From: a bacterium
GTDB lineage: Bacteria; CLD3; SB21
NCBI GenBank assembly: GCA_019695335.1
Contig: JAIBAF010000022.1
Location: 1-52,669, forward strand
Length of the DNA stretch: 52,669 nt
Reading direction: 5' to 3'
The translations under genes were made by a program, and so were the position numbers. Positions 4,149-50,361 of the stretch are shown piece after piece. Each line of letters begins with the position of its first letter. The stretch's first letter is position 1. The notes under the pieces are model-generated. The model ran no database searches. It saw only the letters and a list, made by a program, of their open reading frames with translations, and had not been told where the DNA came from.

Positions 4149-6806
4149 CTATTTGGCCGTTTTGGTTTCAACGGTTTTTTTTGCAAGGTGGCCGTTGCCA
4201 TCAGAAATACCTGCCGCGATCTGTTCCATTTCCAGGTTCTCACGCCAAATACGTTTACCCCAAAGCCGGAGCATCGCGGGAAGAATTAACACCGACGACA
4301 CGGAACAAATGATTATGCCAAATGAACACATATAACCTAAGCTGGACAGGCCGCGGTTGTCTACAAATATAAGTGAACCGAAACCGATGACGGTAGTCAA
4401 TGCTGAAAGAAAAAGCGATTGGCCGGTCTCGTGTATCGCGGCAAAAACATCATGACGCAAATCTTCGAGATAGCGCGAAATAATATAAATTCCATAATCG
4501 ACGCCCGATCCTATTAACAGGGGGACGCAAATCATATTAACGAAATTGATTTTGATTCCCAGAAGACGCATCGTTCCCAAAATACACAAAATCGAAAAAA
4601 TCAGCGGAACCACACATACAAGGATCGCCCGCCAATTTCTGTATTTAATGATAACGAGCAGAAGTACTGTAATCATTGACGATATCACGGCGATGCCAAA
4701 ATCTTTCTTGACTAATTTTAGAAATTCCGCTGTTACGACGCGAATGCCGGTTATGATCGTATGCTCTGTATCGAGTTTTGAATCCCGATGCAACTCACGA
4801 ATGAAATCATTGACAATGTCGATTTCATAGGAGTCACCGGTTAACTCAACCTGCGTAATCACTTTTTTGACCCCGTTTTTCTCAACGTAAAAATGTTTCA
4901 TGATATCGCCGAAGCCCTCGCTCTGAAAACTATGCAAAGTGATCGGCTCCCTTACGGTCAGCATGTTGCGCAAACGGTCGAGGCGGAAATAATTCATCCG
5001 TAAACCGGTTTTGGACATTTCTAGTCGCACCTTAAAAAGAATGCTTTCAACATCGAGGTTTTTGATTTTCGCAATGTTCGCTTCCTGCTGATCAAACGAA
5101 GGAATGTAACGCAACAGAGAATTATAATCTTTGACCATACCTTTTGTGACTAACTCATCCATTTTTTGATTGAGCCTGTGCAGCCGCTCAATCAGTTCTT
5201 CGTCGGTTTGTGCAGTACAAACAACGCTGATCGGTTTGAAGTGCGTTCCGAATTTTTCCTGCAGTCGTTTGATCATTTTCAAATCGACGTCATTTTTGCT
5301 GCGAATGTTCTCGATATTTTCATCAAACGTCACGCCCAAACCTTGATCCTGACTTGGAACTACCCCAACCAAAACCAAAATCATAATTACGGCAATGGCA
5401 ATCCCGGTTGTAGTAATATATTTGGGATGGCGGAGCACAAATTTCGAAATAGCGTCCAGTAATTTACTAAGTGTCGTCTGTAGAGGTCTTCCCTTCAAAA
5501 TTTTCCGGCCACGGATACGGATTTCGGCCGGCATAAAAAATAAAACGGCGGCAAATAAAATCATAATTCCCACGCCGCCAAGAAAACCAAGTTCGTACAG
5601 GCCTTTGAATTCAGTCACCATCAGAACAGCAAATACTACGGCGGTACTGACGGCGCCGTAAAAAACACTGACGCCAGTTTCGCGAAACGTAATCACAAGA
5701 TTTTGAACTACGCTGTTGTGCCGGGTGTGCTGTTCCTGCTCGATAAAACGATTATAAATATGAATGGAATAGTCAATGCCAAGCCCCAATAACATCGCTC
5801 CGGCAGAAGCGGTGATGATATTAACTTTTTGAAACAGCAAATCGCCGAAACAAAAAACCCATGTCACACCGGCCAAAATCGGCGCCGTAATAAAAAACAA
5901 AGCGCGAAAATTACCATAGAAGAAATAAAACAGGATCAGAATCAGGATCACAACCATGAATGAACTATTGATCAATCCTTGCTCGACCGCTCGCGCATTC
6001 GTCAAAGCCGACACGTAATTACCGCCCAAAGTGATCTTGAGTCGCGACCCTTCTTCCCCCATTGTCAATAGCAGTGAATCAACCAGTACCTGATTTCGGC
6101 TGACTATTTCATGACAAAATTTGGTGTCGTTGGGTACGCCGGTCGGTTTGACAAACATAAGCAAAGTCCGGCGATCCTTAGATAAATAATAACTTTCTTT
6201 ATCCCGGATCAACGAAGCATTTTGCGGACCGAGCATTTTTTCGATGTAAGGAAGAAAAAACTCTGAAATGAGCAGCGGATCTTCGCGCAGAACTTTTTTG
6301 ATCAGCGGATCCGGCGGAACCGGAGCATTCAGAATGTTTTTACAATTCAAAATCTGGCGTTCAATCTCATGATCCTCAAACTTCGTCAATACCGTATCCA
6401 GGTCGCTTTCGGATAAATACAATAACGCGTTCTTGACAAAAAAATCTTCAATAAAAGCTTTGTCCTGATCGGTCACGGCATAATTTACCGATGCCACCAT
6501 GCCTGTTTGCATCAGCAAATCACCCATTTGCCGCGCAAAGGATTTGATGAGATCGGGTTCCGGCGGTAAAGAATCGTTCGTTTCAACAAGGATAATATGT
6601 CTCTCCGGCGCACCGAAATCTTCATTCACTTCCCAAAATTCTTTGATCAATTTCGAATCTTGCGGCAGCAAATCAAAATTATTGGTACTGATTTTAATAT
6701 CCATCATGTACCGCGTTGACACAACCGTAATGGCGATCAGTATCAGCAACACAATGCGGTAGTGCTCATAACAAAATTGAGCGACTTTCCCCAGAATGGT
6801 CTTCAT
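4149..6806 (-). CDS. RND-superfamily (MMPL/HpnN-type) membrane exporter
   Basis: This 885-residue protein has one N-terminal helix, a large periplasmic loop, five clustered helices from about residue 275, a linker, then a second helix plus loop plus helix cluster. This is the duplicated RND layout with about twelve membrane segments. The conserved helix-4 motif appears in both halves, as GLGIDYSIHIYNRF and GSGVDYGIYIISRY. The aspartates there relay protons. The single-gene form without a separate adaptor resembles MMPL and hopanoid-transporter families, which move lipids or hydrophobic compounds to the outer envelope. The substrate cannot be told from the sequence. The ATG has an AGGAG site upstream. 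It is first in the run with the NlpC/P60 and carbonic anhydrase genes. Confidence 0.87.
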   Translation of the reverse strand: MKTILGKVAQFCYEHYRIVLLILIAITVVSTRYMMDIKISTNNFDLLPQDSKLIKEFWEVNEDFGAPERHIILVETNDSLPPEPDLIKSFARQMGDLLMQTGMVASVNYAVTDQDKAFIEDFFVKNALLYLSESDLDTVLTKFEDHEIERQILNCKNILNAPVPPDPLIKKVLREDPLLISEFFLPYIEKMLGPQNASLIRDKESYYLSKDRRTLLMFVKPTGVPNDTKFCHEIVSRNQVLVDSLLLTMGEEGSRLKITLGGNYVSALTNARAVEQGLINSSFMVVILILILFYFFYGNFRALFFITAPILAGVTWVFCFGDLLFQKVNIITASAGAMLLGLGIDYSIHIYNRFIEQEQHTRHNSVVQNLVITFRETGVSVFYGAVSTAVVFAVLMVTEFKGLYELGFLGGVGIMILFAAVLFFMPAEIRIRGRKILKGRPLQTTLSKLLDAISKFVLRHPKYITTTGIAIAVIMILVLVGVVPSQDQGLGVTFDENIENIRSKNDVDLKMIKRLQEKFGTHFKPISVVCTAQTDEELIERLHRLNQKMDELVTKGMVKDYNSLLRYIPSFDQQEANIAKIKNLDVESILFKVRLEMSKTGLRMNYFRLDRLRNMLTVREPITLHSFQSEGFGDIMKHFYVEKNGVKKVITQVELTGDSYEIDIVNDFIRELHRDSKLDTEHTIITGIRVVTAEFLKLVKKDFGIAVISSMITVLLLVIIKYRNWRAILVCVVPLIFSILCILGTMRLLGIKINFVNMICVPLLIGSGVDYGIYIISRYLEDLRHDVFAAIHETGQSLFLSALTTVIGFGSLIFVDNRGLSSLGYMCSFGIIICSVSSVLILPAMLRLWGKRIWRENLEMEQIAAGISDGNGHLAKKTVETKTAK

Positions 6807-6935
6807 TGTATAGAAATTTCTCCTGCTTTAAAAAATACACGCCAAAGTAACCGATTTCATCAAAATTAGCAACGACTATCCCATGTTTTTTACATTCTAA
6901 TGGATCAAATTTATATCTCTAACCCCTAAATAACC

Positions 6936-6964
6936 TTGCGCTTTCGCGCTTCATTGCGTATTTT
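6936..6964 (+). promoter_or_regulatory. Candidate promoter for the lytic transglycosylase gene
   Basis: TTGCGC at 6936-6941 is separated by 17 bp from TATTTT at 6959-6964, in the gap between two divergent genes. The -10 match is modest. Confidence 0.35.
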
Positions 6965-7002
6965 AATTTTAATTAAGCTCTCACCAAGAAGGAGTTTTTT
7001 GA

Positions 7003-9312
7003 ATGATGGTTTTCCATCTTTTGGTTCGCTACGCCAAACTGATTCCTTTTTTTATTGTCCTCCCGGTAGCCCTTTCTTTCCATAACGATCATTCCAAACG
7101 TAATCCATTCGCTGCTTACATTGATGTCCCTTCGGATACGCCATACGCAGGTTTTATGTTACGCGCCAACCAGTTCTATGAGCAAAAAGATTACGCTCAC
7201 GCGCTAACTCATTTACTGTTTGCGAGAGACCTTGCGCCGGAATTGCAAAATGATTTCCGGCTTAATTTTAAAATCGCATTCAGTTACAAAAATTTGAACC
7301 AATCCGAGAAGGCATTACCCTATTGGCACATTGCCGCAGAAGATTCATTGATGGGCGATTACGCTCTTTACCAACTGGCTGGTACCTACACGTCTTTTCC
7401 CGACAGCACCGATCAGGCCATCGACACTTACAAACAATTGCTTCAATCTTTTCCGAATTCCGTTTTTGGAATGGAAACACGCATTACTTTGATTCAATTA
7501 CTCAATAGCCGTAAACGCTTCAATGAATCGGATGTTTTTCTGGCTTCGGCTGACAACGTAATAAAAACCGACAAATCGTATAAATTACAGTTCGAGCCTG
7601 TCGTTACGCTTCTCACCGGCTGGTCGCACTGGAATCGCGGACGCCATCAACAGGCACTCGATGAATTGCGTACCGTGATCAATAATTTTCGGTATACAGA
7701 CGAAGCCTATCAGGCCAAACAACTTATCGAGCAAATCAAAACGAAAATTGGCAGTCCGGTCACTGCCGAACAATTTATCGCCGGTAATGAAGTTTTAGTT
7801 TTGCAAGGACATTTCCAGGAAGCGCTCAATGAATTAGCCGAAGCGAAAATCCGCTATCCCGCCGATGACGACCAAAAATCCATCGATTATGCCATTGCCA
7901 AAGTGTACAACGCCCAAGGACTTTTTTCAGCTGCCGTTCCGCGGTATCAGGCATTGTGGAATAAATACCGCCATAAAGAAGCGCTTTTCAATCTCGCTAA
8001 AGCGGCGCGGTACAGCGATCAACTCGATCTGTCCATCAAAGCTTATCAAGATTATCTGAAAAATGTTGCGCTGAACAAAGCGTGGAAAAATTACATCGCG
8101 TATGAAATTGCAAATAATTATTCCGCCAAAGGCGACACGGCAAGTTTACGTGAAGCCAATCGCTGGTACCGCGATGTTCAAAAAACGGCTCAACGTTCAT
8201 CGCTCTACGGTTATCACGCCGCGTTCCGTGAAGCATTTAACTATTACAAAATGGAAGAGTACGGTGAGGCAGTCAGCAAACTCCAATTGCTGCAAAACAC
8301 GCTGCCGTTTATGGAATCGCGATGCCGCTACTGGATTGCCAAATCGTATGAAAAAATGAACCGCCCCAAAGAGGCACAAGCCCTTTATGTCCAACTCGCT
8401 ACGTCGCGTTATTCGGATTATTACGGAATGCTCGGCGCCCAGATGTTGTCCGGCCGTTCGGAAGTGAAAAATTTATTTGACGTCTTTTCACACACACAAA
8501 CTTCTCACGGCAACCTTTGGTCGGCGCTAAAAAATGAAATTAAACCGCGCATCCGGACCACTGAAAATGATCCTTTCATTGATGCGCCGGATGAAGTGCT
8601 GCAGACATTGGAACCGGAATTTACCAAGGCGTGGATCGGCTGCGATGTGCTCGATCCGACGTACGCGGAAAGAGAGCTTTTGCCACTGAAGGACAAATAC
8701 TATTCAACTTTTGAACGGACGAAATTTTTAAAAAGCTTTTCCGAATATATCGGTGGATATAACTTAGCCGTCGATGCAGCAGTCAAACTACGTACAAAAT
8801 ATAAAAAACAGATATCGGATTTTTCGGATGAGTATACTAAATTATTTTATCCGCGTTATTATATTCCCGTAATTCAGCATTATGCGCACGTACACGGATT
8901 GGATGAGAACTTACTCCTGGCATTAGTCAAATCCGAAAGCGCTTTTCGCAGCAATGCCATTTCATCGGCACGCGCAGTTGGACTGATGCAGATCATGCCT
9001 TTTACCGGCAACGAACTCGCCCGCCTGCTAAACTTGGATGATTTTCAGGTTATGCATTTACAAAACCCTGAATCAAGCATCCGCCTGGGTTCGTTTTATC
9101 TGCATCAGCAGGCACAAACTTACAAAAATTACGTCCCGGCAATTTTAGGCGCCTACAATGCCGGCCCTCACCGTGCTACGTTTTGGATGAAATATTACGA
9201 TGCCGATGAACCTGAAGAATTTCCTGAAATTGTAGAGCTGCTTGAAACGGGAAGTTACATCCGTAAGATTATGCTTGATCGATGGATTTACAGTCAATTG
9301 TATGCTTCGTAG
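7003..9312 (+). CDS. Slt70-type soluble lytic transglycosylase with TPR-like repeats
   Basis: This 769-residue envelope protein begins with a hydrophobic export segment (LIPFFIVLPVALSF). It has a long alpha-helical superhelix of TPR-like repeats (about residues 50-600) and ends in an SLT domain. The catalytic glutamate is Glu645 in VKSESAF. The domain then shows GLMQIMPFTG and AILGAYNAGPHR, both family signatures. The enzyme cleaves glycan strands of peptidoglycan to 1,6-anhydro ends, recycling wall or making space for envelope machines. The layout of a long helical ring plus C-terminal SLT domain matches Slt70, and the length is slightly above the E. coli enzyme. An AAGGAG site precedes the ATG. 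Its stop lies three bases from the end of the convergent DUF2851 gene. Confidence 0.92.
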   Translation: MMVFHLLVRYAKLIPFFIVLPVALSFHNDHSKRNPFAAYIDVPSDTPYAGFMLRANQFYEQKDYAHALTHLLFARDLAPELQNDFRLNFKIAFSYKNLNQSEKALPYWHIAAEDSLMGDYALYQLAGTYTSFPDSTDQAIDTYKQLLQSFPNSVFGMETRITLIQLLNSRKRFNESDVFLASADNVIKTDKSYKLQFEPVVTLLTGWSHWNRGRHQQALDELRTVINNFRYTDEAYQAKQLIEQIKTKIGSPVTAEQFIAGNEVLVLQGHFQEALNELAEAKIRYPADDDQKSIDYAIAKVYNAQGLFSAAVPRYQALWNKYRHKEALFNLAKAARYSDQLDLSIKAYQDYLKNVALNKAWKNYIAYEIANNYSAKGDTASLREANRWYRDVQKTAQRSSLYGYHAAFREAFNYYKMEEYGEAVSKLQLLQNTLPFMESRCRYWIAKSYEKMNRPKEAQALYVQLATSRYSDYYGMLGAQMLSGRSEVKNLFDVFSHTQTSHGNLWSALKNEIKPRIRTTENDPFIDAPDEVLQTLEPEFTKAWIGCDVLDPTYAERELLPLKDKYYSTFERTKFLKSFSEYIGGYNLAVDAAVKLRTKYKKQISDFSDEYTKLFYPRYYIPVIQHYAHVHGLDENLLLALVKSESAFRSNAISSARAVGLMQIMPFTGNELARLLNLDDFQVMHLQNPESSIRLGSFYLHQQAQTYKNYVPAILGAYNAGPHRATFWMKYYDADEPEEFPEIVELLETGSYIRKIMLDRWIYSQLYAS

Positions 9313-22710: not shown

Positions 22711-22742
22711 AAAAAACCTCATGAAAATCATGAGGTTTTTTA
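22711..22742. terminator. Bidirectional intrinsic terminator
   Basis: AACCTCATGA pairs with TCATGAGGTT around a short AAA loop, with A-rich and T-rich flanks on both sides. It closes both the epoxide hydrolase gene and the leftward atp operon. Confidence 0.85.
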
Positions 22743-22759: not shown

Positions 22760-23173
22760 CTATCGTTTCAAACGTCTTTCAGCAATTCGCATTCGGTTAC
22801 GAGCTCTCGCAATCGCTTGCATAGCGCCGTTGGGTTCAAGATTGCTCCGTTCTTCAAGACGCTTCAATTCACGTTCATGAGCCAACTTGGCGCGATTGAC
22901 ATCAATCTCGGATGCTTTTTCGCATGTTTCAGCCAACACGATGACTTTATTGTCGTGCACTTCGACGAATCCTCCGCTCGTCGCGTAATAATCGTCGTAG
23001 CCGTCGGTCTGACGAACCCGCATTTCACCGATTTTAATTGACGTAATGAACGCGGCATGATTTTTCAAAATTTCAAATCCACCATTGGTTCCAGGTGCGG
23101 CAAAATCAATAACGTCGCCACTGAAAATCACGCGCTGAGGTGTAATAATTTCAAGATGAAAAGTTTTTTCCAT
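22760..23173 (-). CDS. atpC: ATP synthase epsilon subunit
   Basis: This 137-residue protein is the central-stalk epsilon subunit of F1. The N-terminal beta-sandwich (HLEIITPQRVIFSGDVIDFA, GGFEILKNHAAFITSIKIG) is followed by two C-terminal helices (about residues 90-135, rich in Arg/Glu), the form able to inhibit ATP hydrolysis by extending into F1. It is the last gene of the operon, 12 bases after atpD. Confidence 0.95.
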   Translation of the reverse strand: MEKTFHLEIITPQRVIFSGDVIDFAAPGTNGGFEILKNHAAFITSIKIGEMRVRQTDGYDDYYATSGGFVEVHDNKVIVLAETCEKASEIDVNRAKLAHERELKRLEERSNLEPNGAMQAIARARNRMRIAERRLKR

Positions 23174-23185: not shown

Positions 23186-24586
<1,401 letters not shown>

Positions 24587-24615: not shown

Positions 24616-25506
24616 TTATTCGGCCTGTTGAAGCGCATCGGCGCCGCTGACGACTTCAAGAATTTCTTTCGTAATCGCCGCCTGTCGAGCGCGGTTGTAA
24701 AACAGCGTCAGCGTTTGAATAAGCTCACCCGCGTTTTCTGTCGCAGAATCCATCGCCGTCATACGAGCGCCCATTTCTGCGGCAAAAGATTCCAACAAAA
24801 TACGCCACATCTGCACATTCAAATGTTTGGGAACAAGCGTATTGATAATTTCATATTGAGATGGTTCGTAGATATAATCGGTTTCTACGCTATGCCGGCG
24901 ATCGGCCTGAACCTTTTCCGGTTCGACCGGCAGCATTTTTTCAACGATCAGATTTTGCTGCAAAGCCGATTTGAATTCATTGTAAATCACATGTACTTCA
25001 TCGGCGCGGCCGGACGTATATTCCTCGACACACGCCGATACGATATCCTGCGCCGTTCCATATTGAAGATGATTAAAAAAATTGACGAACCGCTGAGCCA
25101 CCGGATAATGGCGTTTGGTAAAAAATTCATCGCCTTTCCTTCCGACCGTGATCAGTTTCAAACGCCCTTCGTCATGAAAGGGTTTGAATTCATTACCGAT
25201 CAATTGATTGACACGGCGAATAATGTTGCTGTTAAAAGCGCCGCACAGCGAACGGTCGGCCGTCACTACAACGAGCAAAACGTTTTTAACTTCGCGATGG
25301 TGAATGAGCGGATTTTTTTGCGCTTGAGGATCGAGCGCCAGATGTTTGATCAGAGCGCCCAATTTATACGCGTAAGGCCGGGCGGACAAAATATTTTCCT
25401 GCGCTTTGCGCAATTTTGCCGCTGCTACCATTTTCATGGCTTTCGTAATTTTTTGAGTGCTTTTGACGGTACTGATGCGTTGTCTGATTTCACGTAACGT
25501 TGCCAT
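24616..25506 (-). CDS. atpG: ATP synthase gamma subunit
   Basis: This 296-residue protein is the rotary central-stalk gamma subunit. The N-terminal helix TLREIRQRISTVKSTQKITK and the C-terminal AMDSATENAGELIQTLTLFYNRARQAAITKEI form the coiled coil that turns inside F1. The central domain carries VTADRSLCGAFNSNI, typical of gamma. It is separated from atpA by two lipoprotein genes, an arrangement I do not know from standard operons. It begins 27 bases after the second of these. Confidence 0.97.
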   Translation of the reverse strand: MATLREIRQRISTVKSTQKITKAMKMVAAAKLRKAQENILSARPYAYKLGALIKHLALDPQAQKNPLIHHREVKNVLLVVVTADRSLCGAFNSNIIRRVNQLIGNEFKPFHDEGRLKLITVGRKGDEFFTKRHYPVAQRFVNFFNHLQYGTAQDIVSACVEEYTSGRADEVHVIYNEFKSALQQNLIVEKMLPVEPEKVQADRRHSVETDYIYEPSQYEIINTLVPKHLNVQMWRILLESFAAEMGARMTAMDSATENAGELIQTLTLFYNRARQAAITKEILEVVSGADALQQAE

Positions 25507-25533: not shown

Positions 25534-25905
25534 TTATTGCTTTTCAGTGTCAGCGCTGTCGGAAAGGGCTTTTTCGTCCAGACTTTTCATAGCCTCTTCC
25601 ATGATCGCCTGCGTCGATATATCGTTGAATTGCTTTTTCTTTTCGTCGTTTTTGTTGATCTCGGCCATCGTATGTTTAAAATCGGCGCCTGTATAGCCTA
25701 ATGGCTGAGTAAATTTTTCGATTTCATCTATTGGGGCATCTTCCGGGCGTTGATATTTTTTTATAAAAACTTCATCGCCGGCCATTTTCAGAAATATTTT
25801 CACGAACGCGTCCATTGGAATCTCTTTGGGTTTTTGTGCGCACCCGGACCAGCCGAGCGCCATGATCGTGATGATCGTTGCAATGAATCCTAGTGAACGT
25901 TTCAT
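25534..25905 (-). CDS. Small lipoprotein inside the atp operon (copy 2)
   Basis: This 123-residue protein starts at ATG 25905 with GAGG upstream; a GTG further upstream is not favoured. Its lipoprotein signal is LGFIATIITIMALGWSG-Cys. The mature part is helical and charged and shares landmarks with the preceding gene: KEIPMD right after the Cys, K-I-x-L-K, G-Y-T-G-ADFK near residue 75, a DEKK block and MEEAMKSL near the end. The two are thus diverged paralogues. Function is unknown. The small size, anchor and IPMD-plus-helices pattern faintly recall DUF4296-type lipoproteins. The C-terminal tail is acidic and polar. It ends 27 bases before atpG. Confidence 0.8.
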   Translation of the reverse strand: MKRSLGFIATIITIMALGWSGCAQKPKEIPMDAFVKIFLKMAGDEVFIKKYQRPEDAPIDEIEKFTQPLGYTGADFKHTMAEINKNDEKKKQFNDISTQAIMEEAMKSLDEKALSDSADTEKQ

Positions 25906-25997
25906 AATCAACCTCACATTTTATGGTAAATATGAACGGTATTGTTTTGCCGGCGAATGATTTCTACCAACATCCTCAGCAAGCCTCTCGGCCTATA

Positions 25998-26402
25998 TTA
26001 TTTTGCTTCTTCTTTTTTGGTTTCGCCCGTTGCGGCTGAATCCGCGGCGCCCTGCATCATTTTGCCAAGATCCGATCCGCCCAATGCTTTCATCATTTCT
26101 TCCATCATCAGTTTACCGATGACTTCTTCAAATTCTTTTTGTTTCTTTTCGTCCTTGTCGATCATATTGGCCGTAAGTTTGAAATCGGCTGCGGTGAATC
26201 CTTCTTCTTTGGCATAAGGCTCGACTACTGTATTTTCAAGATCGTTGGGGCTTTTATCTTTTTCGATTTTGCCTTCCATAACAAGTTTCAAAGTAATTTT
26301 GGCCATCTTGTCCATTGGAATTTCTTTAGCGCTGCCACCGCAGGCAACCACGATCACGGATGCGGCGAACATCATGGCTATTACATTTAACATTCTTTTC
26401 AT
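25998..26402 (-). CDS. Small lipoprotein inside the atp operon (copy 1)
   Basis: This 134-residue protein has GAGGAG just before ATG 26402. Its signal LNVIAMMFAASVIVVA-Cys marks a lipoprotein. After the Cys come GGSAKEIPMDKMAKITLKLV, a variable linker, GFTAADFKLTANMIDK, DEKKQKEFEEV and MMEEMMKAL. The last 25 residues are Ala/Gly/Lys/Glu rich and probably disordered. Landmarks are shared with the next gene, so this is a tandem duplicate pair. It lies 95 bases downstream of atpA, in the same orientation and without a visible promoter or terminator, so it is probably made from the atp transcript. No known ATP synthase subunit has this plan. Confidence 0.82.
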   Translation of the reverse strand: MKRMLNVIAMMFAASVIVVACGGSAKEIPMDKMAKITLKLVMEGKIEKDKSPNDLENTVVEPYAKEEGFTAADFKLTANMIDKDEKKQKEFEEVIGKLMMEEMMKALGGSDLGKMMQGAADSAATGETKKEEAK

Positions 26403-26497
26403 AACTCTCCTCTTTGTTTTTTGCCGCTCCGTGACGTTTGATCAGGGAGGACGTTTAGAATAACTGCTGAGGATGCCGGTAGAAAGGCACCCCGCGC

Positions 26498-28018
26498 TTA
26501 CGCGCTAACTTTAAAAGTTAATTTAAATTCGGCGATTACCGTGTTCAATTGATTACGGATTTCGTCCGTCAATTCTTTTTTCGTCGCGATAGCATCCAGC
26601 AACGATTTATAACGCAATTCCATGTATTCGAGCATTTCTTTTTCAAAGCGTCGGCAATCCTGAACTTGAATTTCGTCAAGATAACCGTTCGTCGCCGCGT
26701 AAATAATCGAAATTTGTTTTTCAAAGGAATACGGTTCGTATTGACCTTGCTTGAGAATTTCTACCAATCGTGCACCACGGCGAAGCTGTTGCTGAGTGAC
26801 TTTGTCGAGATCGGATCCGAATTTTGCAAAGGCTTCAAGGTTACGGTATTGAGCGAGATCGAGACGCAGACGGCCGGCTACTTGCTTCATCGCCTTGATC
26901 TGGGCGCTTCCACCGACGCGCGACACGGAAATACCGACGTTGATCGCAGGACGAATACCGGAATAAAACAAGTTCGATTCCAAAAAGATCTGCCCGTCGG
27001 TGATCGAAATAACGTTGGTCGGGATGTAGGCCGAGACGTCGCCTGCCTGCGTTTCAATGATCGGCAAAGCCGTCATCGAACCGCCGCCGAGTTTGTCGTT
27101 CAGTTTGGCCGCGCGCTCCAGCAACCGTGAGTGCAGATAGAATACGTCGCCCGGATACGCTTCACGACCCGGAGGACGGCGCAATAATAACGACACCTGA
27201 CGATACGCCACTGCGTGTTTCGATAGATCGTCGTACACAATCAGCGCATGACGTCCGCTATCGCGGAAAAATTCTCCCATCGCCGCACCCGTATACGGCG
27301 CAATATATTGCAACGGTGCCGGTTCCGATGCCGAAGCGGACACAACAATCGTATATTCCATCGCATTATTTTCTTCAAGTGTGCGGACGACGCGCGCTAC
27401 CGTTGATTCTTTCTGACCGATACCAACGTAGATACAATAAACGCCTTTGCCTTTCTGATTGATGATCGTATCGACCGCAACGGCAGTCTTACCCGTTTGA
27501 CGATCGCCAATGATCAATTCACGCTGGCCGCGTCCGATGGGAATCATCGCGTCGATCGCTTTGATGCCCGTTGCCAAAGGTTCTTTTACCGATTGGCGTT
27601 CGATCACGCCCAAGGCTTTACGTTCAATCAACGATGTGTGTTTGGTGTGAATCGGCCCTTTGCCGTCGATCGGCTGGCCAAGTGCATTGACCACACGACC
27701 GAGAATTTCTTCTCCGACCGGTACTTCCGCAATGCGGCCCGTACGTTTGACAATGTCGCCTTCTTTGATTTCACTTGACTCACCGAAAAGCACGGCGCCT
27801 ACGTGATCTTCTTCCAAGTTCAAAATCATACCGATCGAACCGTTGGGAAATTCGATCAATTCACTCGCCATCGCTTTGGATAAGCCGTAAATGCGCGCGA
27901 TACCGTCTCCGATCTGGAGAACCACACCTGTTTCGTACGTATCAATCTCGCGTTCAAATTCCGCAAGCTGCTTCTTCAGGATACTGGATACTTCATCCGG
28001 TCTTAATGAAACTGCCAT
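26498..28018 (-). CDS. atpA: ATP synthase alpha subunit
   Basis: This 506-residue protein is the non-catalytic alpha subunit of F1. The N-terminal part carries [17 protein letters not shown]. The nucleotide-binding site has the P-loop [13 protein letters not shown] with Lys177, and [16 protein letters not shown] as Walker [14 protein letters not shown] carries the arginine that completes the beta active site. Length and motifs are standard. The last codons form a GCGC hairpin around the stop. The gene follows atpH by 36 bases. Downstream comes the lipoprotein pair instead of atpG. Confidence 0.98.
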
Positions 28019-28054: not shown

Positions 28055-28603
28055 TCAATGTGCATGTGTATTACCGAAACCTTCGCGCAATTTTTCAAGC
28101 TGCCTGCGGACGGAGCCGTCGATGACCGTATCTTCTACGCGAACTAAAAAACCACCGATGAGGCTAGGATCTTTGCGAAAAGAAAGTTGCGGCGTCTTTC
28201 CTGTCAACGATTTCAATTTGCTCTTCAGAGCTTCGATCTGATCGGCACGCAAATCAACAACGGATACGACTTCAGCGTTGACCAGGCCGAGTTGTTCATT
28301 GCGTAAATCTAAAAACGATTCGACGATTTCACCCAGAATATTTTCCCGGCGTTTCTGACACAAAACTTCCAGAAACTGGAGCGCTTCGGTTGAAACTTTT
28401 TTCTCGAACATTGATTTAATAATTTTTTTCTTTTGATCTTCCTTGATTACTGGGTTGATCAAAAAATTACGGAATTCAGGCGATTGGTCGACCGCTTCTT
28501 TCAGGCCTTGGATATCCTGCGTCAGGCGTTCCATCACTTTGGCGTCACTGGACAGTTCTAACAAAGCCTGCGCATATCGTCGTGCCGTTCGGGTACTTTT
28601 CAT
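28055..28603 (-). CDS. atpH: ATP synthase delta subunit
   Basis: This 182-residue protein is the peripheral-stalk delta (OSCP-like) subunit that links F1 to the b dimer. The N-terminal helical domain has TARRYAQALLELSSDAKV, then FRNFLINPVIKEDQKKKII. The C-terminal domain has the family block IGGFLVRVEDTVIDGSVRRQLEKLRE. It begins nine bases after atpF and has ordinary length. Confidence 0.95.
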   Translation of the reverse strand: MKSTRTARRYAQALLELSSDAKVMERLTQDIQGLKEAVDQSPEFRNFLINPVIKEDQKKKIIKSMFEKKVSTEALQFLEVLCQKRRENILGEIVESFLDLRNEQLGLVNAEVVSVVDLRADQIEALKSKLKSLTGKTPQLSFRKDPSLIGGFLVRVEDTVIDGSVRRQLEKLREGFGNTHAH

Positions 28604-28612
28604 AGATCTTTT

Positions 28613-29161
28613 TTAGTTTTTATTGACCGGTAATTCTTTAATAAAATCGTCGATCAGTTTTTTGTGTTTGTCCGCGTCGAGATTGGCGCCGATGACTTTG
28701 CCGGCGGCTTCCACCGCGATCCCGGCAATTTCGTTTTTGAGATGCATCAACGCAGTGTTTTTCTCATTCTCAATTTCTTTTTTAGCCGATGCCACCATTT
28801 TATCCGAATCTTCTTTGGCTTTGACAGCATAATCGAAACGTAATTTTTCCGCCTCTTCTTTGGCTTTTTTCATAATGTCCTGTGCTTCGCGATTGGCACG
28901 GGATAAAATTTCTTCATTTTTGGCAATTAATTGTTCGGCATCGCGGCGGGCTTTTTCAGCCTGATCGAGCGAATTTTTAATTTTTTCTTCACGTTCCTGC
29001 AGCGTCTTGATGATCGGTTTCCACGCCAATTTACCAAGCAAAATGAGAAGAAGAATGAATATAATGATCGTCCAGATCATCAATCCCGGATCAATGTCAA
29101 GCAAACCGCCTTTATGCTCTCCATCGCCAGAAAGCCAAGCCAATAGCCATAACGTCTTCAT
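28613..29161 (-). CDS. atpF: ATP synthase b subunit
   Basis: This 182-residue protein has a single membrane helix near the N-terminus (LMIWTIIIFILLLILLGKLAW) and a long charged coiled coil (about residues 50-140). It ends in a helix rich in Ala/Gly (IAGIAVEAAGKVIGANLD). The b subunit forms the peripheral stator that holds F1 against rotation. Only one b-type gene is present in the operon, so a homodimer is expected. The atpE-atpF gap contains a strong hairpin. Confidence 0.95.
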   Translation of the reverse strand: MKTLWLLAWLSGDGEHKGGLLDIDPGLMIWTIIIFILLLILLGKLAWKPIIKTLQEREEKIKNSLDQAEKARRDAEQLIAKNEEILSRANREAQDIMKKAKEEAEKLRFDYAVKAKEDSDKMVASAKKEIENEKNTALMHLKNEIAGIAVEAAGKVIGANLDADKHKKLIDDFIKELPVNKN

Positions 29162-29195
29162 AGCATCCCTGTGTTATTTTATAAATTTTGAGCCG

Positions 29196-29229
29196 GTAAA
29201 TGGCGGGAACTTTTCGTTCCCGCCTTTAC
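29196..29229 (-). promoter_or_regulatory. RNA hairpin between atpE and atpF
   Basis: On the coding strand, GTAAAGGCGGGAAC pairs with GTTCCCGCCATTTAC: nine GC-rich base pairs continued by a five-pair AT stem past a single bulge, around a GAAAA loop. No run of T follows it, so it is not a standard terminator. It sits in the 79-base gap just after the atpE stop. The likely role is to protect the upstream atpB-atpE message from 3' decay or to set the boundary of a processed RNA. Confidence 0.7.
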
Positions 29230-29240
29230 AAACGTTATTG

Positions 29241-29474
29241 TTATTTGAGAGCCAAAAGGATACAAATAACTTCCGCAAACAACGCCACACCTTCGATGAG
29301 CGCAGCGGAGATAATCATCGTTGTACGAATATCGCCGGCCGATTCCGGTTGACGCGCGCTGCCTTCGAGCGCCGACGCCGCTAACCTGCCGATACCCATA
29401 CCTGCACCGATCGTCGCCAATCCTGCGCCAATACCTGCAGCCAAAAAGCCTAATCCTAAATCACCCATGTTCAA
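29241..29474 (-). CDS. atpE: ATP synthase c subunit
   Basis: This 77-residue protein is the proteolipid that forms the rotor ring. Two helices are joined by the polar loop SARQPESAGDIR. The ion-binding carboxylate is Glu61 in SAALIEGVALFAEV, followed by Gly-Val and not the Ser-Thr pair of sodium-binding rings. A proton-type ring is therefore likely. A second carboxylate, Glu68, lies two turns further along the helix. The N-terminal helix is glycine-rich (GAGLATIGAGMGIG), as in c rings. It lies between atpB and atpF. Confidence 0.95.
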   Translation of the reverse strand: MNMGDLGLGFLAAGIGAGLATIGAGMGIGRLAASALEGSARQPESAGDIRTTMIISAALIEGVALFAEVICILLALK

Positions 29475-29525
29475 TGTCCTCCGATTAATGTTGGTTAAAG
29501 TGTTTAATGAAAATTTTAAAATAAT

Positions 29526-30416
29526 TTAATGATGCGCCGCTTCGTGACCAGCTTCATCGTGATGCGAATCGTGCGCATGATGCAACCCCATACCGATAAA
29601 TAACGCCGATAGTAATGTGAAAATATACGCCTGAAGAAATGCGACAAATAATTCAAGCACATAAATAAATAAAGCAAAGACCACTGAAATCGGAGCCACC
29701 ACAAGCGACTTCAGCACAAAGATCAATCCAATCAGGGACAAAATCACCACGTGTCCTGCCGTCATGTTAGCAAAAAGACGGACACTCAATGCAAACGGTT
29801 TAGTAAAAAGGCCGATGACCTCAACCGGCACCATGATCGGCCACAAAAGCCAATGCACGCCGGCTGTAAGGTGCTTGAGATACCCACCAATACCTTGCGC
29901 TTTGATCGCCGTAAATTGGGTCACAATAAATGTACACACCGCAAGAGTTGCGGTGACCGCGATATTGCCTGTGGCCGTTGCGCCGAAAGGGATAAGGCCA
30001 AGCAAATTCATGAATAAAATAAAGAAAAATAGTGTCAGGAAATAATTAATATAGCGATCGGTTTTGTCACCGAAATTCGGACGAACAATTTCTTCCCGAA
30101 TAAAAACAATGATGGATTCGAATAAATTGTATAATCCTTTGGGAATAAGTTTTGGACGGGCAAGCACGGTAAAAACCAGAAGCAGTAGTAAAGCGACCAG
30201 CCACATCATCACGACGTGTTTCGTCGGTGAAAGATTGATGGTCAAACCAGCAATGTGAATATCAGGAAAATGCGGTAAATTTACGTATCCTAAAAAAGGA
30301 ACTTCGATCTGATTGGAATTAGTAATATGATGGAGGATCGTCCCGCCGATATCGACCTTTTCGGGCGCATGGGCTAAAGAATCCTGAGCCGTTGATGCGG
30401 CAGTTGAAAACAGCAT
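29526..30416 (-). CDS. atpB: ATP synthase a subunit with His-rich C-terminal tail
   Basis: This 296-residue membrane protein is the stator subunit of Fo. After a secreted-like N-terminus it has membrane segments from about residue 65. The essential arginine is Arg213 in LSVRLFANMTAGH, next to the c ring. PKGLYNLFESIIVFIRE and ISVVFALFIYVLELFVAFLQ are family blocks. The last 18 residues (HHAHDSHHDEAGHEAAHH) contain eight histidines. This tail is beyond the conserved fold and could bind metal. It lies 51 bases after atpI and 51 before atpE. Confidence 0.96.
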   Translation of the reverse strand: MLFSTAASTAQDSLAHAPEKVDIGGTILHHITNSNQIEVPFLGYVNLPHFPDIHIAGLTINLSPTKHVVMMWLVALLLLLVFTVLARPKLIPKGLYNLFESIIVFIREEIVRPNFGDKTDRYINYFLTLFFFILFMNLLGLIPFGATATGNIAVTATLAVCTFIVTQFTAIKAQGIGGYLKHLTAGVHWLLWPIMVPVEVIGLFTKPFALSVRLFANMTAGHVVILSLIGLIFVLKSLVVAPISVVFALFIYVLELFVAFLQAYIFTLLSALFIGMGLHHAHDSHHDEAGHEAAHH

Positions 30417-30466
30417 GAGCGTAGTATCCTATGATTTCGAGCATTCCGGCATAACCGCCAACAATG

Positions 30467-30853
30467 CTATGAGTTCTTCATCACCTTCTTCAGTTGAAGA
30501 CCGCGATTGATAAAATAAATTTCGACGATTTGAAACAACAAATAATAAATTCCAAAAGCGACAACGAATAATTTAAGATCAATGTTCACTAACTTAGCCA
30601 TCAGCACCAAAACAATTGCCACGAGCATGAGACGAATTCCCATACCGCCCATAACGATGCTCATGAAAAGTTTTACAGGTTTGGCTAACGCCCAACGTGA
30701 CATATAAAAACCCGATAATACGTGAACCAATGCCAACCCAAGACCAGAAAGTACGATGGTCATTTCGCCGGATGTTGTCAAAAAAGAATTAAGTATCAAT
30801 AACACGACAATGGCAATTACAAAAATAGTAAATAAAAAATATTTCTGATTCAC
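30467..30853 (-). CDS. atpI: AtpI-like ATP synthase accessory membrane protein
   Basis: This 128-residue protein has four hydrophobic helices (for example LFTIFVIAIVVLLILNSFL, TIVLSGLGLALVHVLSGFY and GIRLMLVAIVLVLMAKL), matching the small membrane proteins encoded at the head of atp operons. AtpI helps assemble the c ring. The start codon overlaps the atpZ stop in ATGA, so translation is probably coupled. The sequence match is by layout and context more than by strong motifs. Confidence 0.75.
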   Translation of the reverse strand: MNQKYFLFTIFVIAIVVLLILNSFLTTSGEMTIVLSGLGLALVHVLSGFYMSRWALAKPVKLFMSIVMGGMGIRLMLVAIVLVLMAKLVNIDLKLFVVAFGIYYLLFQIVEIYFINRGLQLKKVMKNS

Positions 30854-31107
30854 GATTGTTTTTCTTTTTTTCCTGGTTTAGGCAATTCGGCGACAATCCT
30901 GAATAACCTGTAGAATCCGCCGAAAAGTCCCATAAAAATTCCAATTAAAACAAACAAAATTTTCGTCTCAAATTTTTCATCCAGCCAGTGACCAATCCAT
31001 ACCAGCGCTCCCAGCGTCAATGCAAATTGCCATCCCCATGTCAGGATGGGTCCTAATTGACTCGTTGTTTCACCAACGGACTTATGGATTTTTTTAGGAT
31101 CGCTCAC
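30850..31107 (-). CDS. atpZ: AtpZ/AtpI-family small membrane protein
   Basis: This 85-residue protein has two helices, WQFALTLGALVWIGHWLDEKF and ILFVLIGIFMGLFGGFYRLFRI, the plan of AtpZ (putative F0F1-ATPase subunit, Ca2+/Mg2+ transporter). The glycine-rich second helix with FxGxxxG spacing is typical. AtpZ and AtpI together have been linked to magnesium or calcium transport and to c-ring assembly. The gene lies nine bases after the bactofilin gene and its stop overlaps the atpI start. Confidence 0.85.
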   Translation of the reverse strand: MSDPKKIHKSVGETTSQLGPILTWGWQFALTLGALVWIGHWLDEKFETKILFVLIGIFMGLFGGFYRLFRIVAELPKPGKKEKQS

Positions 31108-44462: not shown

Positions 44463-47400
44463 TTATTTTATAAACGTCATCTTCATGACTTTGTTAAGTG
44501 AACCGGCTTGGAGACGATAAAAATAGATGCCTGACGCGACCTGATTTCCCTGATCGTTACGGCCATTCCACTCGACATCATAACGCCCGGCGACATGATC
44601 TTTTCCGGCAATCAATGTCTTCACTTCCTGCCCGAAAACATTATAAATTTTTAATGTCACTTTTGCCTTTTGGGATAATTCATAGTGTATCGAGGTCGTC
44701 GGGTTAAATGGATTTGGATAATTCTGTTCAAGAGAAAAAACTTCGGGAATTTTCGTTCGCGGCGATTTTGAAAGAATCTGCCCGTTTTCTTTGGCTGTAT
44801 AAAATTTATCGACCGCTAAATTCGTGTAAACTGTACGTGTATGATTTGTATTCGGCCAGTCAATAACAAGTGAGTCTACGGTCGTAGCATCGCCTAACCC
44901 AAAATGGATTTCAAAGCCGTCTTGCGATGCATAACCCGTCAATGACTGTACTTCACGCAATTGCCAAACCGAATGCCCGTTGATCGTCGCCTTCACACGA
45001 ATATGAGCTCCTACTCCGCTACGATTAGCCGTCTCACCGACTGCACGCACACTCATCCAATGATAAGCATTGCCGTTATTGAGGAACAACAAGTTATTGT
45101 TTGAGATTGGATTGTCGGGATCATTGTGATCGTCCGTACCTGCGGCGACGAAAAGATCCAAATCACCGTCTCGATCGACATCAACAAAGCTGCAACCGTG
45201 TCCCACGATCATTTCAGAAGTGATGACACTGCTTTCAATACGTTTAAATTGCATGCCACCTTCATTGACAAAAAAGAAACCCGGATCAGGACCGCCAACA
45301 AAATCTTTGGTGTTGGCCACATAAATATCGATATCGCCATCATTATCAAAATCGCCCGAAGTGCTTCCGATCGAGAAATACGCACGATGCTTAGCCATTT
45401 CGGCGTCAACCAATTCCGTAAACATTCCGTTACCATCGTTACGGAAAAGTTTATTGGGATTCAAACTCACTTGGGATAATCCTGTCATGAAAACATCGAG
45501 ATCGCCGTCATTATCATAATCGGCCCAGTTACTGCTCCAGTAATCATTCGGAATTCCTTGTCCGAGAAACATACGCGTAAACTGATTGGCAGAGGTTTGT
45601 GTGTATAAAATATTAGGATATGGCCAATTAGTTGTCAATACATCCGTGTCGCCATCATTGTCATAATCGACCAGTGAAACGCTATTCTCCCAAGTCGTGT
45701 CATTGGCAATCAATGGCTGAGTTGAACGTGTAAATATTCCATTTTGATTGTAATATAAAAAATTCTGCTTCCCATATCGATTGACTATAAAACCTTCATT
45801 GGCTACAAATAAATCAGCAAACCCGTCATTATTAAAATCTCCCCATGCCCCGGCAACTGAATACTGCTTTGCTGCCCCGTGATCGATCTGACCGGTGATT
45901 TTTGTAAATGTGCCATTTTGATTATTACGGTATAACGCATTATTTCCATTTTCGTCAGCATTCACTACCATCGCATCAACATATCCGTCGTTGTCATAAT
46001 CCGCCCAGCTTGCAGAATACGATCCTGCGCCGCCATCTTGTGTAATCCCGGAATTGGTTATGGATGTAAATGTTCCATCACCATTATTCTTGTACAAAAA
46101 ATCGTTTTCACCGTAGTTTACAACATGAAGATCTTGAAAACCGTCGTTGTTATAATCAATCCAATTACTCGAATACGAATTTCCTCCGCCAGTCACGATG
46201 GATCCAGTGGTGACGCGAGTAAATTGTTCAACATTTACATATGCGCCGATGCGCAATAGTACTAAATTCGGATCGTTAGTCGCAAAATCAATATTGGTAA
46301 AATGCTCATCAAAAACTTTGAGCGAGTTGGAAGAGAATTCTAAAACAACCTCTGTCGTTTGCCCGGACGGAATCGTTCCGCTCATTGGCATAATACTCAA
46401 CCATGACGGCATGGGCGAAGTAATATTCCAGTTAAGATCGCTGTTGCCCAAATTATTCAGTTTAAGCGTGTCGTATACCGTTGATTGCGAAAGCATTTGT
46501 TTTTGAAATACATCTTTTGAATAACCCACCGTCGGGAGATTATTAACGGCCGTCGCCGCGGTGACCACCGATTTAATCGTAATATCGTTTTCCTTAATCA
46601 CAACGGTTGATTCGAAATTATCGGCAACTACCGAAGAAAAAGTTAACGAAATATCAACGGCTGTATGAGGCGCCAGTTGGAAAGACATTTCAGATAGCTG
46701 AAATGCAGCCGAATTAGAACTTGCAGTAATCGTTTTGGTTTGATCAGTATAATTTTTTATGCGAATGGCTTTTTCGGATGTCAATCCCGTCAAGATCACA
46801 GGAAATGAAATCGTATCGGGATCAACAATAACTGAAGTATGAGTTTCTAAAAGCGCTTGTAATACATTGAGTCTTGCACCGGTTACGACTTTACTCTCAA
46901 GCGAGTTTAATTTATCGGCTGTTTCCAATAAAATTTCTTTAATGCGCCAATGGGGCAATTGCGGATTTTCAGACCATAATAAAGCCGCCGCGCCGGTGAC
47001 CAACGGTGTTGCCATCGACGTACCGGAATATTTGGCATATTTATTATTAGGAACAGTGCTTATAATTTCGTCCCCCGGCGCTGCAAGGTCGACAATGGTT
47101 TTTCCATAATTAGAAAAACCAGCCAGCACATCCTGCCGATTGGTCGCTGCGACGGAAATAATATTATCCAATGCGTAATTAGCCGGGAATTGACTAAATA
47201 CGGCATTGTCCCAGCCATCATTGCCGGCCGCCGCCATGAATAAACATCCGGCATGATTCGCTGCTTCAATTGCATCGTAAAGAGCGCGTGAGTAACCGCT
47301 CCCGCCCCAACTGTTATTGGTAATCTTCGCGCCCATCATCGTGGCATAGTCAATCGCTTGCACGGCGTCTGAAACTCGACCACCGCGTTTACCCAAAAAT

Positions 47401-48176
47401 TTCAATGCAATTAGCTGTGCACTCCACGCAATGCCGGCCACGCCCTTTCCATTATTGGCAACTGCAGCAATTGTTCCGGCCACGTGTGTTCCGTGGCCTA
47501 TATCGTCGTATGGTTGATTGTCATTATTAACAAAATCCCAACCCACTATATCATCGATAAAACCATTACCGTCGTCGTCGATTCCATTCTGATCGTTGGA
47601 TGTAAGTTTTCCGTCATGATCGATATCTTCGCCCGGATTGATCCAAATATTTTCTTTAAGATCCTCATGATTCCAGTCAATGCCTGTATCGATCACGCCG
47701 ATCTTGATTCGTTTACCGGTTTGAAAATTCCACGCTTCAACGGCGTCAATATCCGCATCACTTTTACCTCCGGATTGTCCAGTATTATTCATTGACCACA
47801 GATCATTGAAGAGCGGATCGCTGGCTAAAGCATCGGCTGCCGAAACACTTTCTTCCTGAATGATTTTGGGGAATGGAATCCATTCATCTAACTCCGCATA
47901 TTCGATCCAATCCTGATCGCGCAACCGAGCTACTACATTGGAGATTGAAACGGTAGAATCCTGCAACTCCCAGATTTCTCCATTCATCACATGCAAGGAA
48001 GCCACGCGCGACAATGCCATTTCTTTTCGTAATGCGGATGAGGTCGGTTCGGAAAGTTTCTGCAATGTGGCCGATTTGAATTTAACAATGACGCGCCGCG
48101 GTTGCGGAGCCTGAGCAAACACGGTTACAGGTCCGACTATGGCGAGAAGAAACATAATCAGCGATCTATTTAACAT
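44463..48176 (-). CDS. Secreted S8 protease with FG-GAP/ASPIC domains and type IX sorting domain
   Basis: This 1237-residue protein starts at ATG 48176, 11 bases before the upstream stop. Signal peptide (MFLLAIVGPVTVFAQ), an I9-like propeptide, then a subtilase domain with Asp163 (VIDTGIDWNHEDL), His228 (GHGTHVAGTIAA) and Ser387 (SGTSMATPLVTGA). A Ca-binding-type insert rich in Asp follows Asp163. Residues about 500-660 look like HYDIN/Ig-like sandwiches. Seven FG-GAP units (DYNNDGFQDLHVV, DYDNDGYVDAMVV and so on) fill about 670-1010, then an ASPIC/UnbV-like domain (GVGAHIRVKATINGHSVW). The last 85 residues are the sorting domain with QNYPNPFNPTTSI. It is an exported or cell-surface protein. 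Confidence 0.92.
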   Translation of the reverse strand: MLNRSLIMFLLAIVGPVTVFAQAPQPRRVIVKFKSATLQKLSEPTSSALRKEMALSRVASLHVMNGEIWELQDSTVSISNVVARLRDQDWIEYAELDEWIPFPKIIQEESVSAADALASDPLFNDLWSMNNTGQSGGKSDADIDAVEAWNFQTGKRIKIGVIDTGIDWNHEDLKENIWINPGEDIDHDGKLTSNDQNGIDDDGNGFIDDIVGWDFVNNDNQPYDDIGHGTHVAGTIAAVANNGKGVAGIAWSAQLIALKFLGKRGGRVSDAVQAIDYATMMGAKITNNSWGGSGYSRALYDAIEAANHAGCLFMAAAGNDGWDNAVFSQFPANYALDNIISVAATNRQDVLAGFSNYGKTIVDLAAPGDEIISTVPNNKYAKYSGTSMATPLVTGAAALLWSENPQLPHWRIKEILLETADKLNSLESKVVTGARLNVLQALLETHTSVIVDPDTISFPVILTGLTSEKAIRIKNYTDQTKTITASSNSAAFQLSEMSFQLAPHTAVDISLTFSSVVADNFESTVVIKENDITIKSVVTAATAVNNLPTVGYSKDVFQKQMLSQSTVYDTLKLNNLGNSDLNWNITSPMPSWLSIMPMSGTIPSGQTTEVVLEFSSNSLKVFDEHFTNIDFATNDPNLVLLRIGAYVNVEQFTRVTTGSIVTGGGNSYSSNWIDYNNDGFQDLHVVNYGENDFLYKNNGDGTFTSITNSGITQDGGAGSYSASWADYDNDGYVDAMVVNADENGNNALYRNNQNGTFTKITGQIDHGAAKQYSVAGAWGDFNNDGFADLFVANEGFIVNRYGKQNFLYYNQNGIFTRSTQPLIANDTTWENSVSLVDYDNDGDTDVLTTNWPYPNILYTQTSANQFTRMFLGQGIPNDYWSSNWADYDNDGDLDVFMTGLSQVSLNPNKLFRNDGNGMFTELVDAEMAKHRAYFSIGSTSGDFDNDGDIDIYVANTKDFVGGPDPGFFFVNEGGMQFKRIESSVITSEMIVGHGCSFVDVDRDGDLDLFVAAGTDDHNDPDNPISNNNLLFLNNGNAYHWMSVRAVGETANRSGVGAHIRVKATINGHSVWQLREVQSLTGYASQDGFEIHFGLGDATTVDSLVIDWPNTNHTRTVYTNLAVDKFYTAKENGQILSKSPRTKIPEVFSLEQNYPNPFNPTTSIHYELSQKAKVTLKIYNVFGQEVKTLIAGKDHVAGRYDVEWNGRNDQGNQVASGIYFYRLQAGSLNKVMKMTFIK

Positions 48177-50361
48177 ATAACATCTTTCGTGATTTAGTAA
48201 TTTTTCCTGAACGCATGACACATATATACACTCCGCTGGCAACGGTGCGACCGTTTCGATTCCTTCCGTCCCATGTAACGGTAAATTCACCGGCAGGATG
48301 TGAATGCGCGACAAGTAATGTCCGTATTTCCTGTCCCAGAACATTGTAAATCGTAATCTTGATCGGGCCGGGATTAGTCAAACCATACGGAATGCGCGTT
48401 TCAGGATTAAAAGGATTCGGATAATTTTGAGCAAGAAATATCGTTTCGGGAATCTCCGGTTCCGGTTCATGTGGAACGAATCCGGCCGGACGATAGGCAA
48501 TGATATTACCGTATTGACCGGCAGTTGTACCGGTAGTATCATTTAGAAAATCAACGGCGTAACCGTCATGAAAAAATTTGGTAGCATACGCCGTATCAAT
48601 TTGCCAAGTTTTGCCGGTATCCAGACTCCGATAGACCGAGCCGAACTCTCCAACAACTATTACCTTTGACGGCGTGATAAAATCCACGTCGTAGAAAGCA
48701 TCTTCGATCGGTATCTGTACGCCCAAACCTCCGTCACGTTTAATGACAATTTTTTCCCACGAAAATCCGCTATTGGTTGTACGAATGACCGCTCCATCGA
48801 TTCCAACCGCAATGCCGTTCATACTATCCGCAAAAACTGCCGATCGGAGATCACTTTGAATTGGAGAAGCGACGACTTGCCATGACAATCCGCTGTTGGT
48901 CGACCGTGTAATCAGCCCATGCGAGCCAACGGCTATTGCTTTTTGTTGTGTTACCCATTTAACGGACCGTAAATTGGCTATAACGTTAGAGACACACTGT
49001 GTCCACGAGCTACCACCATCCGTGGTTCGCAAAATAATACCGGATTGACCAACCGATAACCCATTGTTCGAGTTAACGAAATCCACTCCGTAAAGCGTGT
49101 TGTAATAACCCGAATGCATTGATGACCACGATATTCCGCCATCGGTTGAGCGAATCACCCATCCGCTGTCACCGACAGCGATAGCCGACTCCTCGCCGGT
49201 TAAAGACAAGGAATGAAAAGTTCTCGAAGAATTAAGCGAGGCTGTATGCCACTGTTTTCCGGAATTAGTAGTATATACGGCCGTTCCGTGATCGCCTACG
49301 CCAATACCGTGCGTAGAAGAAAATAATTTTATATCAAGTACCGGCTCGACGGCGCCTTGCATGCGTGATGTCCGATTTGCTCCCGGCGGCTTTTTATAAA
49401 CTGTGTTAAAAGCGCCTACCAACCATTCCGTTCCGTCCGTCAGAAATTGGATACTGCGAATGTCATCGTCAATGCCGATACTTTCTTCATTCCATGAAAG
49501 CCCGCCATCCGAAGTGGTAAAATATTTTCCTGCATCACCAACGGCGACTCCATTCGAAGGATCGCGAAAAGCAACATGATAAAAATCAAAAGCGATTATG
49601 TCCGTTTCTTCGCGAATTTTATTCCAAGTTTTTCCATCATCAGTCGAACGTACAATTACTCCGTTTCTTCCAACTCCAACCCAGATCGAATTATCTACGT
49701 ACGTGACGTGATTAAGCCCGATGTATTCATCGTCAGATTTATTGGTAATAGCGGGTATTGTCCACGAATCGCCGCCATCCGTCGTACGATAAATTGAATA
49801 ATTGTGTGTGGAACTTCCTGTACCAACAACGATACCAGTGTTCGAAGTACGCATCATTACGGCTGATAATTGCGGATTATCCGGCAGTGGAGGCAGTGGA
49901 GTCCATGTCGCCCCGCCATTGTTGGTTCGCAGGACTTCTCCAAGATACGCGACTGCAAATCCGGTTTGTTGATCGCCAAAGGCGATATCCAGGAAATAAT
50001 CTTCAACGGAAAATACGGTATCTTCCGAATGATACCTTTCATCCCACGTTTTGCCACCGTCAAGAGTACGATAAATTCGATTGTCACCGGCAATAAATCC
50101 GGTCGATTCATTGATAAAAGAAACCGCAGTCAGGTCGCGATTGCTGACACTATCCGGAGTCAGCCAGGTACCACCGCCATCCGTTGTTCTGGTCACGGAT
50201 CCGCGCAGGCTGATTACCACTCCATGCCCCTGACTATTAAAGTGCGCATCTGTAAAAACATTACCTGCAGGAATCGGATTTTGCCAATACCATTGCGATT
50301 GCGCCGATAAAGAATTGACAATGATGATACTTGCCAATATTGTAATGAATCTGAATATCAT
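48166..50361 (-). CDS. Secreted Ycf48/BNR-repeat protein with type IX sorting domain
   Basis: This 731-residue protein starts most likely at ATG 50361, with a signal peptide (FRFITILASIIIVNSLSAQ). About twelve repeats of the BNR/Ycf48 type follow (TRTTDGGGTW, YRTLDGGKTW, LRTNNGGATW, VRSTDDGKTW, IRSTDGGISW, YRSLDTGKTW), enough for one or two beta-propellers. The C-terminal sorting domain has AQNYPNPFNPETRI and ends MLYVK. Ycf48 itself is a photosystem assembly factor, but this group of proteins is secreted and serves unknown roles such as binding sugars or surfaces. It overlaps the downstream S8 gene, so their translation is coupled and the two may work together. Confidence 0.85.
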   Translation of the reverse strand: MIFRFITILASIIIVNSLSAQSQWYWQNPIPAGNVFTDAHFNSQGHGVVISLRGSVTRTTDGGGTWLTPDSVSNRDLTAVSFINESTGFIAGDNRIYRTLDGGKTWDERYHSEDTVFSVEDYFLDIAFGDQQTGFAVAYLGEVLRTNNGGATWTPLPPLPDNPQLSAVMMRTSNTGIVVGTGSSTHNYSIYRTTDGGDSWTIPAITNKSDDEYIGLNHVTYVDNSIWVGVGRNGVIVRSTDDGKTWNKIREETDIIAFDFYHVAFRDPSNGVAVGDAGKYFTTSDGGLSWNEESIGIDDDIRSIQFLTDGTEWLVGAFNTVYKKPPGANRTSRMQGAVEPVLDIKLFSSTHGIGVGDHGTAVYTTNSGKQWHTASLNSSRTFHSLSLTGEESAIAVGDSGWVIRSTDGGISWSSMHSGYYNTLYGVDFVNSNNGLSVGQSGIILRTTDGGSSWTQCVSNVIANLRSVKWVTQQKAIAVGSHGLITRSTNSGLSWQVVASPIQSDLRSAVFADSMNGIAVGIDGAVIRTTNSGFSWEKIVIKRDGGLGVQIPIEDAFYDVDFITPSKVIVVGEFGSVYRSLDTGKTWQIDTAYATKFFHDGYAVDFLNDTTGTTAGQYGNIIAYRPAGFVPHEPEPEIPETIFLAQNYPNPFNPETRIPYGLTNPGPIKITIYNVLGQEIRTLLVAHSHPAGEFTVTWDGRNRNGRTVASGVYICVMRSGKITKSRKMLYVK

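Follow-up and report, generated by a model that had tools for sequence, protein, structure and literature searches.

Few gene orders in bacteria are as conserved as those of ATP synthase operons. The locus considered here, lying in a stretch of bacterial DNA of 52,669 nucleotides (the window), raises the question of why two small lipoprotein genes should stand inside such an operon and what their products might do. A fixed and selected insertion of this kind would suggest either a periplasmic enzyme factor not yet described or an envelope-protein output tied to energy metabolism; moreover, the copies embedded in the atp operon could provide a functional handle on DUF4296, a family common in the Bacteroidota lineage.

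The atp operon and its two lipoprotein genes

The operon lies on the reverse strand, in the order bactofilin, AtpZ (PF09527), AtpI-like, a, c, b, delta, alpha, lipA, lipB, gamma, beta, and epsilon. The upstream atp genes (delta, b, c, a, AtpI-like, and AtpZ) occupy positions 28055..31107; they are followed by the open reading frames of atpA (alpha, 26498..28018, 88% identical to that of genome G004), lipA (25998..26402), lipB (25534..25905), atpG (gamma, 24616..25506, 73-79% identical within the family of the window, f1), atpD (beta, 23186..24580), and atpC (epsilon, 22760..23173). After atpC, a 14-bp hairpin with a T tract (22711..22741, same strand) represents a likely intrinsic terminator of the operon. 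The preliminary description had reported two related lipoprotein genes between atpA and atpG, an otherwise standard F-type order (a-c-b-delta-alpha-gamma-beta-epsilon), and no promoter or terminator separating the lipoprotein genes from the atp genes. The open reading frames and the lipid cysteines agree with the first of these statements and the gene order with the second; as for the third, a consensus scan of the atpA-atpG interval revealed promoter-like and terminator-like sites no more commonly than in shuffled sequences, and the convincing terminator is the one after atpC. The lipA gene is flanked by wider gaps (95 and 92 bp) than those seen in the relatives of the window, where the spacing of the lipoprotein genes ranges from -8 to +30 bp, 4-nt overlaps included. 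The common strand, the lack of an internal terminator, and the overlaps in the relatives fit a single transcription unit, in which the lipoprotein genes would be expressed together with the atp genes.

The lipA gene codes for a lipoprotein of 134 residues with the lipid cysteine at position 21 and a canonical lipobox (VVAC); it starts with ATG, with AAAGAGGAGAGTT ahead of the start as ribosome site. The lipB product is 123 residues long, with the lipid cysteine at position 22; its ribosome site is TGAGGTTGATT, and the ATG at 25905 is preferred over the GTG at 25917. In lipB, the lipobox reads WSGC, and the W at -3 is unusual; ordinary lipoboxes are found in the orthologues of G003 (LYGC) and G002 (LVSC). 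The two proteins share 38% identity over 109 residues (E 3e-19), which bears out the earlier view of diverged tandem copies; the KEIPMD string after the lipid cysteine, the G(F/Y)T-x-ADFK block, the DEKK stretch, and the MEE-x-MK end, on which that view was based, are all seen in the alignment, and both ribosome sites described there are present. The two genes are the sole copies in the 3.76-Mb genome to which the window belongs.

Each protein is predicted to consist of an N-terminal lipoprotein signal followed by a single small helical domain, the architecture expected of a DUF4296 member (see below). The AlphaFold2 models are all-helical, with a mean pLDDT of 73.5 for lipA and of 87 for lipB, the input alignment of the latter including DUF4296 members. 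Scans of the single proteins against Pfam and NCBIfam retrieved only noise below the cut-offs, with the lipB matches to DUF592 and selen_PSTK falling far under theirs. No notable sequence match was found in the PDB, no PDB structure matched the predicted folds with an E-value below 0.9 (Foldseek), and a viral Foldseek search gave nothing significant. Thus, neither Pfam, NCBIfam, nor the PDB, by sequence or by fold, revealed any likeness to a known ATP synthase subunit or assembly factor.

A feature overlooked in the preliminary description is a 21-nt inverted repeat whose arms, on the reverse strand, bracket lipA at a distance of 483 nt: the upstream arm (mRNA TTTCTACCGGCATCCTCAGCA, 26465..26485) lies between atpA and lipA, and the downstream arm (mRNA TGCTGAGGATGTTGGTAGAAA, 25961..25981) between lipA and lipB. 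In the mRNA, the arms can form 21 consecutive pairs (19 Watson-Crick and two G-U), and the helix is present in both the minimum free energy and the centroid folds (z -2.94). Among the widely spaced pairs of 20 nt or more listed for the window, this repeat has the highest complementarity. Within the whole genome, it occurs only as these two copies, both flanking lipA; the other genera do not harbor it. It might perhaps act as an RNA processing stem for an enzyme of the RNase III type. The possibility that the arms are transposon ends was discarded, since no target-site duplication was seen by eye and the lipA orthologues of other genera occupy the same place without the repeat.

Elsewhere in the window (44463-50400), two large secreted proteins with similar C-terminal NPFNP sorting-type domains are encoded, named by eye as a subtilase-like protease with FG-GAP-like repeats and a photosystem-stability-type repeat protein.

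Recurrence, origin, and selection of the lipoprotein genes

The distribution of the lipoprotein genes was analyzed in nine genomes of the phylum of the window, seven belonging to f1 and two to its sister family within the class (f2). All six informative f1 genomes, representing four genera, harbor two or three tandem copies exactly between atpA and atpG, for a total of 16 genes, in all of which the lipid cysteine is conserved; besides the window genome, the six genomes are G002, G003, G004, G005, and G006, and in all five both lipA and lipB have positional orthologues. The seventh genome (G001, same genus as the window) is uninformative, its contig ending inside atpD and atpA being unassembled. 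In the relatives, the lipoprotein genes often overlap their neighbors by 1-8 nt, and tight overlaps are found in three genera.

The arrangement was absent from f2, where the atpA-atpG gap is of 48-59 bp and empty, and atpD is not the next gene after atpG. About 100 other atpA-atpG junctions also lack these lipoproteins, the gap being nearly always shorter than 350 bp; in the long-gap exceptions examined (L036, L061, and L123), the genes between atpA and atpG are unrelated to them. The suggestion that homologues recur at this position thus holds for f1 (six of six informative genomes) and not for f2 or the other lineages examined. In L061 (positions 5521-8000, a metagenome-assembled genome from Lake Pavin), the insertion consists of two long overlapping frames resembling hydrophobic membrane proteins. 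With the 16 copies combined into a profile (A2, f1 copies only), the recurrence search did not retrieve any further strong match across 386 genomes; a match in G014 (1e-5, within a frame of 1131 residues) failed to recur with the profile and was discarded. A scan of GTDB contigs with lipA only confirmed no relative, since exact peptide patterns miss diverged orthologues. A literature search on lipoproteins in atp operons found nothing relevant.

In the phylogenetic tree, the 16 atp-operon copies form one clade (100/100), within which copies 2 and 3 constitute supported subclades; therefore, the gene arrived once and was then duplicated in tandem before the genera split. The copies thus share a single origin and a conserved synteny. 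Moreover, all of them are under purifying selection: according to the Nei-Gojobori method, applied to the three genomes of genus g4, dN/dS amounts to 0-0.027 in copy 1, 0.10-0.15 in copy 2, and 0.13-0.21 in copy 3, the reference values being 0.015-0.022 for atpG and 0.008 for atpA.

A separate observation concerns the enzyme itself. In the AtpA tree, f1 (L018, L019, and the window) and f2 (L225 and L226) do not group, though they belong to the same class: f1 takes a basal position in the Ignavibacteria/Bacteroidota part and f2 lies elsewhere, with a support of 83/96. A possible meaning of this split is that one of the two families had its ATP synthase replaced.

Relationship with DUF4296

DUF4296 (PF14129) comprises small lipoproteins widespread in Bacteroidota, Ignavibacteriota, and their relatives; a literature search on this family found no paper. 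All 16 atp-operon copies miss its Pfam gathering score (27 bits), and the family does not appear among their matches at E <= 10. Outside the lineage, A2 matches lipoproteins in G221 (4.9e-14), G363 (3.5e-9), G297 (1.1e-8), G158 (2.9e-8), G348 (1.4e-7), and G101 (8.8e-5). Scanned singly, five of these six (G221, G363, G297, G348, and G101) exceed the Pfam DUF4296 cut-off, with 30-44 bits; in G158, a PF14129 match over the cut-off (29.9 bits) was found at the same locus as the A2 match. Once the signal peptides and the cysteine were removed, the G221 protein was still found by both the f1 profile (2.6e-10) and the DUF4296 profile (4.4e-13). The direct comparison of the f1 profile with a profile of Bacteroidota DUF4296 proteins is modest (HHalign 72%, E 4e-6). 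Homology with DUF4296 therefore relies on profile transitivity, since no member reaches the Pfam cut-off, and on these grounds the atp copies are placed, as probable distant members, in the DUF4296 superfamily, outside the Pfam family proper.

The two groups share the lipid cysteine followed by a (K)-x-I-P-x-x-x-(M/F) helix, a linker, a GIT/GYT-like turn, and then F-x-x-T/S-x-x-x-(I/Y) with a last helix, over a length of about 100 residues; the atp copies differ in having a longer middle segment and a longer, charged C-terminal helix. Furthermore, the atp copies stand in tandem in the atp operon, whereas DUF4296 genes are found as one copy at other loci: near efp, behind glnA, or in a pgk-rhomboid-X-recQ arrangement. 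None of the loci examined includes an atp gene. In five Ignavibacteria-like loci (L216, L218, L219, L220, and L222), the DUF4296 gene adjoins a rhomboid-protease-like gene, with pgk and/or a recQ-like gene nearby, in a conserved neighborhood. Within the class of the window, the PF14129 profile retrieved no convincing DUF4296 gene elsewhere in the f1 genomes G000, G003, and G004, but it did detect, in a different location, a weakly matching DUF4296-like gene in both f2 genomes; this distribution fits the movement of such a gene into the atp operon.

Possible roles of the lipoproteins

To the reading that DUF4296-type lipoproteins were captured, duplicated, and co-expressed with the ATP synthase while keeping their ancestral envelope role we assign a roughly even chance. 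It builds on the homology, the common origin and conserved place of the copies, the gene overlaps, the purifying selection, and the lack of an internal terminator. According to this scenario, one gene of the DUF4296 superfamily would have been inserted behind atpA, ahead of atpG, in the ancestor shared by the f1 members; tandem duplication to two or three copies would have followed, before the genera diverged. These copies would be transcribed with the F1 genes, their translation being closely coupled in most members, and their products, small helical domains with a lipid anchor, would be exported and face the periplasm from either the inner or the outer membrane. There, they would most likely continue the envelope job of DUF4296, with an output tied to the expression of the ATP synthase, rather than being stoichiometric enzyme components. 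In the species of the window, the 21-bp mRNA helix may allow the lipA message to be cut out or stabilized separately. Against the envelope role, the strong constraint on copy 1 and the strict retention here of the diverged copies would fit a role in the enzyme as well.

The preliminary description had indeed proposed an accessory role in the ATP synthase. In its fuller form, the lipoproteins would be lineage-specific F1FO accessory factors, derived from DUF4296, which help to assemble, anchor, or cluster FO from the periplasmic face. We regard this as possible, with the balance tilted somewhat against it: the exact family-wide position, the two or three diverged copies retained, the 1-8 nt overlaps, a copy 1 as constrained as atpG, and a window genome devoid of any other copy all argue in its favor, but a low dN/dS is expected of any highly expressed gene, the DUF4296 relatives elsewhere stand in unrelated operons, and f2 and other lineages build their ATP synthase without the lipoproteins. 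Moreover, inspection by eye of subunits a, b, and c showed nothing out of the ordinary in their conserved parts, with no clear family-specific insertion or change. Finally, a second envelope-type gene has entered the operon of G003-G006, which represent two genera of f1; it lies there between atpG and atpD. This gene (L018:8990-10096, L019:5702-6811, L020:319-1431, and L021:8703-9812) encodes an outer-membrane-barrel-like protein of about 370 residues, with no Pfam match and unrelated to the lipoproteins; its paralogues form a dispersed family, to which the window genome has seven matches, none of them in its atp operon. Thus, of the earlier proposal, the recurrent position stands within f1 and the functional part is weakened. 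A more specific version, in which the two or three DUF4296-derived paralogues form a periplasmic module that is part of the ATP synthase or assembles it, and whose dose in one species is set by the stem around the first gene, seems to us rather unlikely.

The same barrel-type gene, together with the unrelated genes between atpA and atpG in L036, L061, and L123, could instead indicate neutral hitchhiking, i.e., that genes landed in a rarely broken operon and their position is functionally meaningless; tandem duplication on the site, overlaps in three genera, and purifying selection point to selected co-expression, which makes this explanation improbable. That the arrangement is an artefact of contamination, misassembly, or chance similarity, as could be feared with multi-contig assemblies, has a negligible probability: it is refuted by its recurrence in six independent assemblies from four genera, and lipA and lipB are homologous to each other.

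As small extra genes of the atp operon, the lipoprotein genes resemble those of AtpI and AtpZ, both also present upstream in the window. AtpI and AtpZ are membrane-spanning, whereas the lipoproteins are, by prediction, secreted helical domains held by a lipid anchor, and share no similarity with either. In PMC4383579, CGL160/cyanobacterial Atp1 is described as a lineage-specific protein that supports accumulation of the enzyme and has a homologue in an operon-like array with ATP synthase genes; it is a thylakoid membrane protein and not a lipoprotein. A further trait of the enzyme in the family of the window is the His-rich C-terminal tail of the f1 a-subunits.
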